Below are positions 25,656 to 34,657 of a stretch of 64,000 bases of DNA, piece by piece. Origin of the DNA: a virus; the IMG/VR virus record IMGVR_UViG_3300007775_000157, positions 1 to 64,000 of that record; one strand, 5' to 3'. The translations under genes and the position numbers were made by a program. A model generated the notes under the pieces. The model made no database searches and was not told where the DNA came from. It saw only the letters and a program-made list of their open reading frames with translations. The first letter of the stretch is position 1. The number at the start of each line of letters is the position of its first letter.

Positions 25656-25964
25656 ATGACAATAGAAGATGCTAAAAGAAAAGTAGACGAAATTATTAGG
25701 TCGAGTGGAACAACACATCCAAAGATTTCAGTAGTGCAATTGGCTGGTATAGTTAAATATCTTATAGGCGCACTAGATAGAATCAAAATGCCGAAAACGA
25801 CTGTGCTTAGTACGCTTCCATATGACAAGGTTGAAATTGATCCACAAAATCAACTTAATAGAACTCCACCTTTGACCCCAGATAGAAAAAGATATTTTGA
25901 TCAACCAAACAAGGATGGAAAAGAGGAAAATCCACTTCCTCCGATCCCACCGGAGACAGAATAA
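25656..25964 (+). CDS. Unknown accessory protein with proline-rich tail
   Basis: A 102-residue protein. Residues 1-45 are helical (MTIEDAKRKVDEIIRSSG, VQLAGIVKYLIGALDRI); the second half is polar with prolines, ending NPLPPIPPETE, and is probably disordered. Its TAA shares an A with the ligase ATG (TAATG), so the two are coupled. GGAG precedes ATG 25656. It could be a partner of the ligase, from coupling only. Confidence 0.5.
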   Translation: MTIEDAKRKVDEIIRSSGTTHPKISVVQLAGIVKYLIGALDRIKMPKTTVLSTLPYDKVEIDPQNQLNRTPPLTPDRKRYFDQPNKDGKEENPLPPIPPETE

Positions 25965-26929
25965 TGTGTCAAATAAAAGAACATACGTGTGATGTCGTAC
26001 GAATCAAACTTGAGAATCATCCAAATGCAGATGCGCTTAGCATAGTACATGTTAAAGATTTTCAATGTGTTGTAAAAACATCTGATTGGAAGGATGGGGA
26101 GTTGGCTGTGTACATCCCCCCAGACAGCGTTGTTCCGAACACAAAACCGTTCGATTTTCTCAACGGTAATACAAGGATCAAGGCGAGAAGACTTCGGGGG
26201 GAATGGTCTATGGGATTATTGGTCCCAGCCCCAGACGGAGCTAAGGTGGGCGACGATTACATGGAGTGGATGGGTATTACACACTACGATCCTCCGATTA
26301 AGAGCCATTTTTCTACTGGGGGAGATAACACAAATGCGCCACCAGGGTTTATCCCAAAATATGACGTTCTGAATTTTCGAAAATACGCGCAAGTATTTCA
26401 GGATGGAGAAGAAGTTGTCGTGACAGAAAAAATTCACGGAGCAAATACTAGATTTGTTTGTCACAACGATCAAATGTTCTGTGGATCAAGGAACAACTGG
26501 AAAAAAGAAGACCCTAATAATCTATGGTGGAAAGCTTTGAATCAAAATCCAGCGCTCGAAGCATGGCTAAGACGCAATCAGGATTATGTAGTTTACGGGG
26601 AGATTTTCGGGAATGTTCAAAGTCTAAAATATGGTGCTACAAATGGTCAAATATTTTTCGCTGTTTTTGATATCATGAAAAATAATCAATGGCTTGACTA
26701 CGACGAAGCACACGAGATAGGTAAACCTTTGACTTGGGTTCCGTTGGTTTTTCGTGGTCCATTTAACAAAGAGCAAATACTTGAGTTTGCCGAAGGCGAT
26801 AGCATCTGGCCAGAAGCCAATCATCATGCAGAAGGTGTTGTTGTAAAGCCTGTGAAAGAGAGAACAGAAAGAAAAATAGGCAGAGTTCAGTTGAAGGTAG
26901 TAGGGAATAGATATTTGAGCAAAAGTTAA
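25964..26929 (+). CDS. RNA ligase, Rnl5 (Deinococcus-type) family
   Basis: ATP-dependent RNA end joining through a lysyl-AMP intermediate. The 321 residues contain an N-terminal OB-like domain (HPNADALSIVHVKDFQCVV, AVYIPPDSVVP) as in Deinococcus radiodurans RNA ligase, then nucleotidyltransferase motifs: I, EKIHGAN with Lys156; III, VYGEIFG near 212; IV, EGVVVKP near 291; V, VQLKVV near 312. The Deinococcus enzyme seals 3'-OH/5'-phosphate nicks in RNA/DNA duplexes. Here, near tRNAs, a receiver-like cyclic-phosphate protein and a second ligase, repair of cleaved tRNA is the likely job. Domain order is clear; the precise subfamily is by eye. Confidence 0.85.
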   Translation: MCQIKEHTCDVVRIKLENHPNADALSIVHVKDFQCVVKTSDWKDGELAVYIPPDSVVPNTKPFDFLNGNTRIKARRLRGEWSMGLLVPAPDGAKVGDDYMEWMGITHYDPPIKSHFSTGGDNTNAPPGFIPKYDVLNFRKYAQVFQDGEEVVVTEKIHGANTRFVCHNDQMFCGSRNNWKKEDPNNLWWKALNQNPALEAWLRRNQDYVVYGEIFGNVQSLKYGATNGQIFFAVFDIMKNNQWLDYDEAHEIGKPLTWVPLVFRGPFNKEQILEFAEGDSIWPEANHHAEGVVVKPVKERTERKIGRVQLKVVGNRYLSKS

Positions 26930-30866: not shown

Positions 30867-31511
30867 ATGAACAAAACGTCAGTCGTAAATATACGCAGAA
30901 ACGAATACGATATCTATATTGGAAGACCAAGAAAAGGTAGTATGGATGATGGATATTTTGGGAATCCATTTAGCATAACAAGCGATGGAGGTCGTAGCAA
31001 CGCTATCGAATTGTTCAGATCATATTTTGTACAAAGAATCAATAACGATACAGAGTTTGCTACGAAAATAGAATCGTTGCGAGGTAAGACTCTTGGGTGC
31101 TTCTGTAAACCAAAGCTATGCCATGGAGACGTTATAGCGGATTATCTGGATAGAAAAATGAAGGTTGTTGTCTGCGGAAGTCGTAAATGGTTAAATATTG
31201 AAATTATTAAAAAGCGTTTGACAAAGCTATCTTGCAATGCTATAGTAATAGAAGGTGGATGCGAAGGTGCTGATTTAATGGCGAGAAACATCGCTTTAGA
31301 TGTTGGTTTAGAAATTGTAGAATTTCCAGCAGCATGGAAAAAATATGGTAACTCAGCAGGACCGATAAGGAATATCAAAATGCTTGATACTAGACCAGAA
31401 CTGGTGATAGCATTCCATAATGACATACAAAACTCCAAGGGCACCAAACATATAGTAGGAGAAGCTAGGAAAAGAGGAATACCGACAGAGGTCATACGGA
31501 GTATAATATAA
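30867..31511 (+). CDS. DUF4326-SLOG (DUF2493/YspA-like) fusion protein
   Basis: A 214-residue protein of two domains. Residues 1-93 are DUF4326: VNIRRNEYDIYIGRPRKGS, YFGNPFS, LRGKTLGCFCKPKLCHGDVI. Residues 94-214 are a SLOG-superfamily domain of the DUF2493/YspA type: MKVVVCGSRKW, IEGGCEGADLMARNIAL, PAAWKKYGNSAGPIRN, ML...LVIAFHND. SLOG proteins bind nucleotides or NAD-derived ligands; DUF4326 is uncharacterised and common in phages. The fusion suggests both act on one nucleotide-like substrate. The ribosome site is weak; the gene lies eight bases after the HD gene. Confidence 0.8.
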   Translation: MNKTSVVNIRRNEYDIYIGRPRKGSMDDGYFGNPFSITSDGGRSNAIELFRSYFVQRINNDTEFATKIESLRGKTLGCFCKPKLCHGDVIADYLDRKMKVVVCGSRKWLNIEIIKKRLTKLSCNAIVIEGGCEGADLMARNIALDVGLEIVEFPAAWKKYGNSAGPIRNIKMLDTRPELVIAFHNDIQNSKGTKHIVGEARKRGIPTEVIRSII

Positions 31512-31913: not shown

Positions 31914-32279
31914 ATGGATTTATCTTGTGTGCATACTTTTATATGGGACATGCAATCGCGGGGTATAGACCCCAAAGATGTCGCCTATCTTCTGGTAAAT
32001 GACGATGATTACATAGATTTACTCAAAGATTATCAAGGGAAAAATTTTGCTCAAACCACCTTTAGTTCTTCGTCCGATTTCGTATTACATGGAATACCAA
32101 TTATAAAAAGTCCAGTGGTCGGTAAGGCAGAAATCTTTACAGTGATGAAAGATATGATAAATACATATGGAAACAATGCAATATTCCAATACGATATTCC
32201 TCCTGTAGTCCCGACCAACAAAAAACCAGAACAACAAGAAAAAAAACAAAAATCAGACAAGAGAATAATAAGGCTTTAG
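31914..32279 (+). CDS. Unknown accessory protein
   Basis: A 121-residue protein from ATG 31914 (a TTG at 31899 is possible). Helical N-terminal half (VHTFIWDMQSRGIDPKDVAY), then a middle with FVLHGIPIIKSPVVGKAEIF and a low-complexity Lys/Gln tail. No family recognised. It lies between tRNA genes, and its stop codon supplies the first base of tRNA-Ala, so protein and tRNA are packed without spacer. Confidence 0.5.
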   Translation: MDLSCVHTFIWDMQSRGIDPKDVAYLLVNDDDYIDLLKDYQGKNFAQTTFSSSSDFVLHGIPIIKSPVVGKAEIFTVMKDMINTYGNNAIFQYDIPPVVPTNKKPEQQEKKQKSDKRIIRL

Positions 32280-32350
32280 GGGAGGTAGCTCAATGGGAGA
32301 GCATCGGCTTTGCAAGCCGGAGGTTGCGGGTTCGAGTCCCGTTCTTTCCA
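32279..32350 (+). tRNA. tRNA-Ala (TGC)
   Basis: Cloverleaf of 72 nt: acceptor GGGGAGG / TCTTTCC with several G-U pairs including G3-U70, the alanine identity pair; D stem GCTC / GAGC; anticodon stem TCGGC / GCCGG, loop TTTGCAA (TGC); T arm GCGGG-TTCGAGT-CCCGT; discriminator A. Confidence 0.9.
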
Positions 32351-32352
32351 TA

Positions 32353-32433
32353 CCCCTGGTGGCGGAATGGCAGACGCGACGGTCTTAAAAGCCGTTGTCA
32401 AAAGACGTGTAGGTTCGAGTCCTACTCAGGGGA
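32353..32433 (+). tRNA. tRNA-Leu (TAA)
   Basis: An 81-nt class II tRNA: acceptor CCCCTGG / TCAGGGG, anticodon stem ACGGT / GCCGT, loop CTTAAAA (TAA), a long variable arm TGTC-AAAA-GACG, T arm GTAGG-TTCGAGT-CCTAC, discriminator A. Only two bases separate it from tRNA-Ala. Confidence 0.92.
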
Positions 32434-32451: not shown

Positions 32452-32934
32452 ATGGCAACAGAACTAGCCTTGGCAAAACAATCAATGAATAAAACTATTT
32501 CTATTCTAAGAGAAAGAACGACGGGAATAGACAACAATGTCAACGATATACTCGTATCTACGGTATTCGTTTCTATAAATGGACAAAAAACAGCACTGAA
32601 AGAACTTAGTGCAATAAACCAAAATACGAAAACAAGGACAATAAGTATTATACCATATGACAGGACTATGTTACCAGAGATTACCAAAGAATTGATCCGG
32701 CAGGGATTTGACGCCTATCAATTTTCTCCAACAAATATATCTGTCAATATACCTTTGCCGTCTGGCGAAAACTACAAGAAGGTTCTTGCGCATATTAAAA
32801 GTCTTGGAGAAGAAGCCAAAGTAGCAATTCGGAATATTAGACGTAAGTATATGAAAAAATGCGACAGAGAAGAACTTCAGAAAGTAACCGATAATTCTAT
32901 AAATAGAATAGACGAAATAATAAAAAGAACTTAG
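32452..32934 (+). CDS. frr: Ribosome recycling factor homolog
   Basis: Splits post-termination ribosomes with EF-G. The 160-residue protein keeps the two-domain plan: helix I (AKQSMNKTISILRERTTGID), a domain II beta insertion with TALKELSAINQNTKTRTISI, PYDRTMLPEITKELIRQG, NISVNIPLPSGENYKKVLAH, then helices with EEAKVAIRNIRRKYMKK, the most conserved stretch of the family, and a last helix. It is about 25 residues shorter than typical 185-residue bacterial forms; the loss lies between the last two helices and at the N-terminus. It follows tRNA-Leu in the translation-gene block. Phage recycling factors are rare. Confidence 0.85.
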   Translation: MATELALAKQSMNKTISILRERTTGIDNNVNDILVSTVFVSINGQKTALKELSAINQNTKTRTISIIPYDRTMLPEITKELIRQGFDAYQFSPTNISVNIPLPSGENYKKVLAHIKSLGEEAKVAIRNIRRKYMKKCDREELQKVTDNSINRIDEIIKRT

Positions 32935-33153: not shown

Positions 33154-33159
33154 TTGTTT

Positions 33160-33262
33160 GGGCTGGTAGCTCAATGGGTAGAGCGTCCTGCTATTCCGAT
33201 GATGGCTCGTAAGAGTCAGCTTAGGTTCAGGAAGGTTGCGGGTTCGAATCCCGTCCAGCCAA
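33160..33262 (+). tRNA. tRNA-like gene with 30-nt enlarged anticodon arm
   Basis: Acceptor GGGCTGG / CCAGCCA (first pair G-A mismatched), D stem GCTC / GAGC, anticodon stem TCCTG (33186-33190) / CAGGA (33228-33232), T arm GCGGG-TTCGAAT-CCCGT, A at 33262. Between the anticodon stems lie 37 nt instead of 7. Inside, GGCTC-GTAA-GAGTC (33204-33217) forms a stem with a GNRA loop, and CC/GG (33196-33197 / 33224-33225) plus isolated pairs continue it. No normal anticodon can be read. D and T arms nearly match the tRNA-Ala 880 bases upstream, but position 3 pairs as G-C, not G-U. It may be an intron-bearing tRNA, a decoy, or a tRNA-derived RNA. Confidence 0.75.
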
Positions 33263-33282
33263 TTTAAAACACACAAAGTAAA

Positions 33283-33354
33283 CTAGAATAGAACAAAAAA
33301 GGAAATTGCAGTTAGTAAAATACTAAGTATAGCATTTACTGTAGTCTATTTTAG
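33283..33354 (+). repeat. Inverted repeat in the 130-base spacer after the tRNA-like gene
   Basis: CTAGAATAGA (33283-33292) faces TCTATTTTAG (33345-33354) with one mismatch; between them is a second palindrome, TTAGTA-AAA-TACTAA (33312-33326). No reading frame with a ribosome site is in the spacer. It may be an RNA leader or a regulatory hairpin of the gene at 33393; no T-run makes it a normal terminator. Confidence 0.4.
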
Positions 33355-33392
33355 AACTTACATTATGGAAAGTTGTCTATACGGGGTTTAAT

Positions 33393-33590
33393 ATGGATAA
33401 AATAGAACAAAATGTTTTGGATGGATTAATGGTAGCGTGGAATAACTTTGTTAAACTAAAATCAACACATCCAGACGACTTAAACGACTTTCGCAGATCA
33501 TTGCATGAATGTGAGCGTATTATTGGTATGCGACAATTAAGAAAAATTGATCCAGATAGGTGGATAACTTTAGAAAATGTTGATGAATGA
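33393..33590 (+). CDS. Unknown small phage protein
   Basis: A 65-residue helical protein ending IIGMRQLRKIDPDRWITLEN. The pattern 'H...I.MR..RK..PD.W' recurs in small phage proteins I recall, without known function. CGGGG lies before ATG 33393. Its TGA overlaps the next ATG (ATGA-type junction), so it is coupled to the second RNA ligase. Confidence 0.6.
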   Translation: MDKIEQNVLDGLMVAWNNFVKLKSTHPDDLNDFRRSLHECERIIGMRQLRKIDPDRWITLENVDE

Positions 33591-34657
33591 ATGTTATGGA
33601 TCATATGAACGCATATATCAAAGAGAGAGACGATTACGTAACTAGGGGATTGCTCAGATGCGACGATCTCGATGATCTTAGAGTCTATACATATACTAAC
33701 TCGTGCAAACATTGGGATTACATTACTATGAACAGCAGAGGCATAATTGTTAATAGGAAAACAGGTGAGATAGTATCGCAACCCTTTCCCAAGTTTTTTA
33801 ACATGGGCCAAAGACAGGAGACTCAAGAACATAACCTCCCCTGGCACGAAGGTTTTAGAATTTTTGAAAAATGTGACGGATGGCTTGGAATTTTATATAG
33901 ACATAACGGGCAGTATAAAATAGCTACGAGAGGGTCTTTCAAGAGTACTGGGGCTTTATGGGCTACTAAGATTCTTAATGAATGTTATCGTCTAGATGGT
34001 TTACCAGACGAAGTAACTTTGTTGTTTGAACTTATATCTCCGTTAACTAAAATAGTTGTAGATTATGGGCAACGAGAAGATTTAGTTTTACTAGGAGCAT
34101 ACAATAGACATACAGGAGAAGAATACCAATGGGACCAAGTACAGTCGTGGGGAGAAGAGTTCGGATTCCTCACTGCAAATTCGTGGCCGAAAGAGTATCT
34201 TGGATATTGTAGGGGACTTCTAAAATCTAAACCAGGAAATGAACTTGAAGGGTTCATAATTCGTTTTGCTAATGGTCTTAGAATAAAAATAAAATCAGAA
34301 GACTACTTTAGAAGAAGTAAGATTTTACAACAAATAAATCCGCTTGGTATCTGGGACATAATGCAAAATGGTAATTTACCAGAATATATCTGGAATATGG
34401 TTGATAAGGACTACCACGAAGATATCGAGAAAATATATCATACTCTTGCATCCAGATATCGGACCATAAGAGAAGAAATAGATAATCAATACAAGGTTTG
34501 CACAGGTGCTTCCAGTAGAAATGTTTTTGCTAAAATAGCTAAAACAATGTCCCATGCACCAGCCATGTTTTGTCTCCTAGACAAACAAGACAACAAAGTG
34601 GATGAATATATTATGAAAAAGATACGACCCAAAAATAATATTTTGGAGAACGAATAA
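33587..34657 (+). CDS. RNA ligase, T4 Rnl1-like
   Basis: Seals single-stranded RNA ends with ATP; in T4, Rnl1 repairs tRNA cut by host anticodon nuclease. The 356-residue protein has upstream SRGIIVNRKTGEIVSQPF and PKFFNMGQ, motif I EKCDGWLG with nucleophile Lys95, RGSFKSTG, motif III-like LLFELISPLTKIVVDYG, motif IV LEGFIIRF and motif V RIKIKSEDYF, then a helical C-terminal domain. All key residues of the family appear present. Together with the Rnl5-type ligase and the receiver-like protein it makes this phage rich in RNA repair functions. Start ATG 33587 overlaps the preceding stop. Confidence 0.87.
   Translation: MNVMDHMNAYIKERDDYVTRGLLRCDDLDDLRVYTYTNSCKHWDYITMNSRGIIVNRKTGEIVSQPFPKFFNMGQRQETQEHNLPWHEGFRIFEKCDGWLGILYRHNGQYKIATRGSFKSTGALWATKILNECYRLDGLPDEVTLLFELISPLTKIVVDYGQREDLVLLGAYNRHTGEEYQWDQVQSWGEEFGFLTANSWPKEYLGYCRGLLKSKPGNELEGFIIRFANGLRIKIKSEDYFRRSKILQQINPLGIWDIMQNGNLPEYIWNMVDKDYHEDIEKIYHTLASRYRTIREEIDNQYKVCTGASSRNVFAKIAKTMSHAPAMFCLLDKQDNKVDEYIMKKIRPKNNILENE

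Follow-up and report, generated by a model that had tools for sequence, protein, structure and literature searches.

The locus and its anatomy

The window, which is the whole stretch of 64,000 nt that was analysed, comprises the first 64 kb of the 77.5-kb IMG/VR record IMGVR_UViG_3300007775_000157, a tailed phage that encodes a tape-measure protein and a terminase. Four ordinary tRNA genes (Glu, Pro, Ala and Leu) are present, and a fifth tRNA match at positions 33160-33262 lies in a cluster with the genes for tRNA-Ala, tRNA-Leu, a ribosome recycling factor (RRF) and a T4 Rnl1-type RNA ligase, the last of which starts 325 nt downstream of the match. Judged from the phage-encoded recycling factor, the host is probably bacterial. 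The features relevant to the locus are the following:

25964-26929, plus strand: second RNA ligase, 321 aa (Pfam PF09414)
32279-32350, plus strand: ordinary tRNA-Ala(UGC), same cluster as the tRNA-like gene
32353-32433, plus strand: ordinary tRNA-Leu(UAA), same cluster as the tRNA-like gene
32452-32934, plus strand: RRF, 160 aa (Pfam PF01765, 72.8 bits)
33160-33262, plus strand: tRNA-like gene, 103 nt, with a hairpin replacing the anticodon loop (Rfam RF00005, ARAGORN -i, fold)
33160-33166, plus strand: acceptor stem 5' strand GGGCTGG, G1 mispaired with A72, pairs 2-71 to 7-66 with a probability of at least 0.98
33169-33184, plus strand: D arm GCTC-AATGGGTA-GAGC, 4/4 pairs, probability 0.92
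33186-33190, plus strand: anticodon stem 5' strand TCCTG, 5/5 pairs with 33228-33232
33191-33227, plus strand: 37 nt replacing the 7-nt anticodon loop (sequence, fold)
33203-33218, plus strand: inner hairpin TGGCTC-GTAA-GAGTCA with a GNRA tetraloop, 6 pairs, pair probabilities 0.94-1.0
33228-33232, plus strand: anticodon stem 3' strand CAGGA (fold)
33238-33254, plus strand: T arm GCGGG-TTCGAAT-CCCGT, 5/5 pairs
33255-33262, plus strand: acceptor 3' strand CCAGCCA plus A73, CCA not encoded (sequence)
33587-34657, plus strand: T4 Rnl1-type RNA ligase, 356 aa (Pfam PF09511, 73.4 bits; phrog_562)

The tRNA-like gene matched the Rfam model RF00005 at 50.3 bits, against a gathering score of 29 and with an E value of 8e-8 for the window, and with all four stems of the cloverleaf (acceptor, D, anticodon and T). 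This score lies inside the range of the four ordinary tRNAs of the phage (49.4-67.1 bits), and the match is far beyond chance. Default ARAGORN made no call at the gene, and with loop introns allowed (-i) it called positions 33159-33263 with a 30-nt insert. Folding of the 103 nt, which an earlier note on this DNA had proposed as a check, recovered both the cloverleaf and the inner hairpin with RNAfold and the Rfam model; in RNAfold, the stem pair probabilities were all 0.81-1.0 and z was -2.24 for the whole RNA.

The anatomy described in the earlier note was borne out by these analyses and by reading the sequence. The acceptor (six of seven pairs), D, anticodon-stem and T arms are intact, with 20 of the 21 pairs in place overall, and none of the elbow positions (U8, A14, G18, G19 and TTCGAAT) is missing. 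The D and T arms are near-identical to those of the tRNA-Ala of the phage, the G3-U70 pair is lost (the gene reads G3-C70, with A73), and pair 1-72 is a G1/A72 mismatch. In place of a seven-base loop with U33, an anticodon and usually a purine at position 37, which is absent, the gene has a loop of 37 nt (CTATTCCGATGATGGCTCGTAAGAGTCAGCTTAGGTT). The statement that no anticodon is exposed also holds; this loop forms a hairpin, and no removal of 30 nt yields U33...R37.

Within the insert, the GNRA hairpin and the weaker pairing toward the stem, both predicted earlier, were recovered as CC/GG, then a 5x5 internal loop and then the 6-pair hairpin with its GUAA tetraloop. A GNRA hairpin of at least six pairs occurred in 0.36% of shuffled loops, and the free energy of the insert alone was matched by 5.4% of dinucleotide shuffles, which is borderline. 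Assigning the insert to either strand of the anticodon stem, 5' or 3', rather than to the loop was rejected, as it would leave base 31 or 39 unpaired. A repeated element was rejected as well, since the inner hairpin is present as a single copy in the window even when 3 mismatches are allowed. A terminator or promoter role of the locus gave no signal above shuffles, and the downstream spacer (33290-33395) had no notable structure (z = -0.16). Elsewhere in the window, the phage encodes a protein with a Saccharopine dehydrogenase C-terminal domain (PF16653, 27673-28794) and, at 30867-31511, a DUF4326 domain fused to a YspA/SLOG-type domain, which is kept in several relatives.

Distribution among relatives

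Among the relatives and viral contigs searched, the tRNA-like gene was seen only in the window record and in one near-identical viral contig with 2 differences in 38 kb, none of them within the tRNA-like RNA. Because two near-identical contigs carry exactly the same RNA, an assembly error is unlikely. Only the same species was found in a scan with the 18-nt hairpin, among annotated phages, when sequence relatives of the insert were sought in the window, viral contigs and annotated phages, and when relatives were sought by single-query searches with the RNA ligase or the recycling factor. A scan with acceptor, D arm and insert returned the same species plus the unrelated L333, and a pattern with the gene's own D arm had 0 matches in bacterial or archaeal genomes.

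Alignment of the DnaE-like polymerase yielded relatives at 50-64% identity, and their records, several of which are fragments, were searched for tRNAs. In the best syntenic relative, G043, gene content and gene order largely follow those of the window, with orf30867, tRNA-Pro, tRNA-Ala, tRNA-Leu, RRF (48%), Rnl1 (55%), orf35144 and orf35748. In G043, RRF and Rnl1 are ~20 bp apart with no tRNA-like gene between them, and 17 ordinary tRNAs are found around. The RRF copy of this relative is 48-49% identical to the phage-encoded RRF of the window (PF01765, 32452-32934). No comparable insert was found in the other relatives, some of which are represented by fragments; in G053, the loop of one tRNA-like gene is swollen to ~14 nt.

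A model built from the window RNA alone had the relatives' tRNA-Lys(UUU) and tRNA-Asn(GUU) among its best matches, and the acceptor of the tRNA-Lys of relative G042 (GGGCTGG/CCAGCCC) equals that of the tRNA-like gene except for C72. With covariance models of the window RNA (R1 and R2), L061 was the sole further RNA retrieved that has the same extended arm, and it had itself been part of the R1 model; the remaining best matches were mostly ordinary tRNAs. Because of the Lys and Asn matches, the G042 acceptor and the absence from relatives, the gene appears to be a tRNA copy specific to this lineage, with its anticodon and one acceptor pair lost.

We place about half of our confidence in the reading that the anticodon was lost from a tRNA gene copy and that the product is a tRNA-derived, non-decoding RNA that retains the hairpin. 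A young pseudo-tRNA, put out of action when 30 nt were inserted into its anticodon loop, functionless and not yet decayed, is a possible explanation, albeit the less likely of the two. It would fit the confinement of the gene to this phage species and the four ordinary tRNAs of this phage record versus up to about 22 in relatives, which agrees with tRNA loss. The points that count against our preferred reading favour the pseudo-tRNA: the gene is absent from G043 and the other relatives searched, some of them fragments, so that no conservation or covariation supports a function, the lost 1-72 pair could be a first sign of decay, and the hairpin energy is borderline against shuffles. However, the intact stem pairs and elbow residues, the full Rfam score and the tidy GNRA hairpin that the insert forms all speak against a decaying gene, and phages tend to delete useless DNA. 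The intact stems slightly favour use and the missing conservation slightly favours decay.

Removal of the insert

The insert lies within the anticodon loop, which measures exactly 7+30 nt, and the phage encodes both an Rnl1-type and a second RNA ligase. Such an arrangement would suit a tRNA whose 30-nt non-self-splicing intron is excised by an endonuclease, with the phage RNA ligase joining the halves. In our splice test, the joined loop after removal was expected to read Y32 U33 NNN R37. The calibration set consisted of enlarged tRNA genes found with one pattern (a D arm and a T arm separated by 44-74 nt) in viral contigs and in bacterial and archaeal genomes, all scored alike; these scans rest on a single D/T-arm pattern, and the resulting counts are lower bounds and not frequencies. 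Among the matches listed, 49 of the 53 archaeal genes (92%) reached the full score of 10, and the genome loci scored beyond these 53 were a mix of named bacteria and loci without stated titles. The test was also passed by 27 of the 103 viral genes among the matches listed, compared with 0.7 expected from shuffled inserts. Real introns would thus usually have shown themselves, given the archaeal result. In the tRNA-like gene, all eight 30-nt removal registers leave A34 and a pyrimidine at position 37 (loops TTAGGTT, CTAGGTT, CTATGTT, CTATTTT, CTATTCT and CTATTCC), and the best score was 8 of 10.

Inspection by eye of the possible splice sites for a bulge-helix-bulge motif gave a partial match, with a 3' bulge GTT and a central helix CTA/TAG with a U-U mismatch; this helix has only 3 pairs, and the full 3-4-3 motif was not seen. 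Archaeal bulge-helix-bulge introns resemble the 30-nt insert in their location in the anticodon loop but differ from it in that the window RNA gives no canonical loop after removal and in that the phage probably has a bacterial host. Group I introns in tRNA genes are often located in the anticodon loop. Their occurrence in phage and bacterial tRNA genes is described in a published account (PMC3984707). A group I intron was rejected here because 30 nt is far below the size of the ribozyme core (about 200 nt or more); no Rfam group I match was found in the window.

A small intron handled by the phage RNA-repair enzymes, as the earlier note had suggested, is disfavoured because every removal register fails to give a canonical loop, and we regard it as unlikely. 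In addition, the G1/A72 mismatch would persist in the spliced tRNA, and G043 has RRF and Rnl1 without any such tRNA. One case in its favour is L061:94-196, a tRNA-like gene that equals the window RNA in length and has 30 nt inserted in its loop as a hairpin. Once this insert is removed, a Lys UUU loop is left, and the contig also has a partial match to Rnl1 that stays under the family cut-off at 26.8 bits. Rnl1 above the family cut-off was found in 2 of the 20 odd-tRNA records tested, the window record and L105. In its present form, the RNA is almost certainly unable to read codons, and a helper or leftover RNA derived from a tRNA is a likelier identity for it than a tRNA that undergoes splicing.

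A decoy or inhibitor of host tRNA-targeting nucleases, also envisaged earlier, appears very unlikely. Anticodon nucleases and phage countermeasures against them are well known (PMC10264068, PMC3014915), and an RNA ligase gene adjoins the tRNA-like gene. However, the idea is weakened by the loss of the anticodon loop: there is no anticodon to cut, nucleases that read the anticodon loop would find no loop to bind, and no defence target is known for the uncultured host.

Proposed origin, known counterparts and other enlarged tRNA genes

Trimming of tRNA ends is the work of enzymes that for the most part recognise the acceptor/T-arm half. This half is intact here, and the transcript would be expected to undergo processing and to be stable. 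According to the reading that we prefer, a non-decoding RNA with a retained hairpin, the gene would have originated from a tRNA gene copy, with a body closest to the tRNA-Lys and tRNA-Asn of relatives and D and T arms like those of the phage's tRNA-Ala. It would be transcribed together with the tRNA, recycling-factor and RNA-ligase cluster, and host RNase P, a 3' nuclease and the CCA-adding enzyme would recognise the acceptor/T-arm half, so that trimming may produce a stable RNA of about 106 nt that keeps its hairpin and lacks decoding ability. If the RNA is useful, its likeliest role would be that of a stable scaffold presenting the hairpin or of a tRNA-shaped bait for proteins that grip the acceptor or elbow. 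In favour of this reading are the tRNA score within the ordinary range, the stable cloverleaf plus hairpin, the lack of a canonical loop after any 30-nt removal as opposed to the archaeal passes among the matches listed, and an insert with sequence relatives only in the same species among the window, viral contigs and annotated phages. Viral tRNA-like genes without a recoverable anticodon are moreover recurrent, as in L119, L177 and L207, where the anticodon arm is a single long hairpin. Finally, an engineered tRNA scaffold has the same design, and T4 makes the tRNA-like rnaC.

In the engineered scaffold, the anticodon stem-loop serves as the insertion site for a hairpin, the acceptor, T and D arms are kept, and the fused RNA is processed and protected by cell enzymes (PMC3753655). 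The window RNA likewise keeps its arms and has a hairpin in place of the anticodon loop, whereas the scaffold is man-made, for example from human tRNA-Lys3, and has no natural role. If stable, the window RNA would be the natural counterpart of this laboratory construct. It would then also be a new type of non-coding RNA from phages, one skipped by default ARAGORN. T4 species 1 RNA (rnaC) is a small RNA of unknown function (PMC3014915) that is, like the window RNA, encoded beside phage tRNA genes, and it combines an acceptor-like helix of 7 pairs (CGGAACG/CGTTTCG) with the T arm CCGGGTTCGAATCCCGG. However, rnaC as a whole gives no RF00005 match, has a 46-nt 5' leader, lacks plain D and anticodon arms and shares no sequence relation with the window RNA. 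The bacterial Y RNA YrlA also contains a tRNA-like domain (PMC7790460), but the phage record has no Ro60/TROVE or phrog_850 gene.

In our survey, at least about 100 viral tRNA-like genes of several kinds had 18-48 extra nt. Enlarged anticodon arms thus recur in viral genomes, and one sequence-conserved class is tied to a Ro60-like protein. In this class, the clearest of them, an insert of ~42-47 nt interrupts the 5' strand of the anticodon stem and consists of CG|TAAAAT, a hairpin and ACAGCAA, and its removal in most members gives perfect stems and canonical loops (Ile, Thr, Gln, Arg, Asn). Members are L025:2477-2591, L097:1178-1293, L104, L120:10535-10648, L136 (9329, 11061, 11301), L149, L166:1970-2090, L185:7661-7776, L201 (1800, 2120), L123, L048 and L069. 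A phrog_850 gene, which encodes a vWA/Ro60-like protein with Pfam DUF2828 and DUF7788 that is annotated as RNA-binding, was present in 12 of the 15 tested records bearing this class, often within 400 bp. It is possible that these genes contain new introns or represent Y-RNA-like tRNA mimics with an extra arm. That the window RNA belongs to this class is highly improbable: in both, a tRNA gene has its anticodon arm enlarged by 30-47 nt, but the window RNA lacks the ACAGCAA motif, its insert is located in the loop and not in the 5' stem strand, and the 77.5-kb record, which may be incomplete, has no phrog_850 or TROVE gene.

As a broader and rather doubtful proposal, phages may use the tRNA body as a small-RNA chassis, in which a hairpin replaces the anticodon loop and end-processing by RNase P, a 3' nuclease and CCA addition gives protection; the window RNA would then be one of many independent examples, made beside RRF and RNA ligase and acting on host translation or tRNA repair. 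For the old puzzle of T4 rnaC/rnaD and phage Y-RNA-like RNAs, the survey supplies concrete relatives that can be tested.

Several further kinds of enlarged genes were observed. Two successive anticodon arms occur in L103, L107, L108, L113, L152, L162, L169 and L199 and in the Actinomyces loci L344, L398 and L413; the first loop is mostly CTTATAC or CTTATAA (UAU), and the second is CTGATTA/CTGATAA or CAGATTA (Ile-like GAU). L105, L129 and L147 are tRNA genes (Asn GUU, Thr UGU) with a 43-46-nt insert in the anticodon loop that looks like a mini-tRNA nested in the gene, with an acceptor-like helix closing a T arm. In tRNA genes of the Flavobacterium loci L357 and L403 and of L424, L441 and L450, another conserved insert (GGTAGTTTTGAAATTA...GGTCAATC...ACTTACTTC) follows position 28, and its removal leaves Lys, Asn and Arg-type loops.
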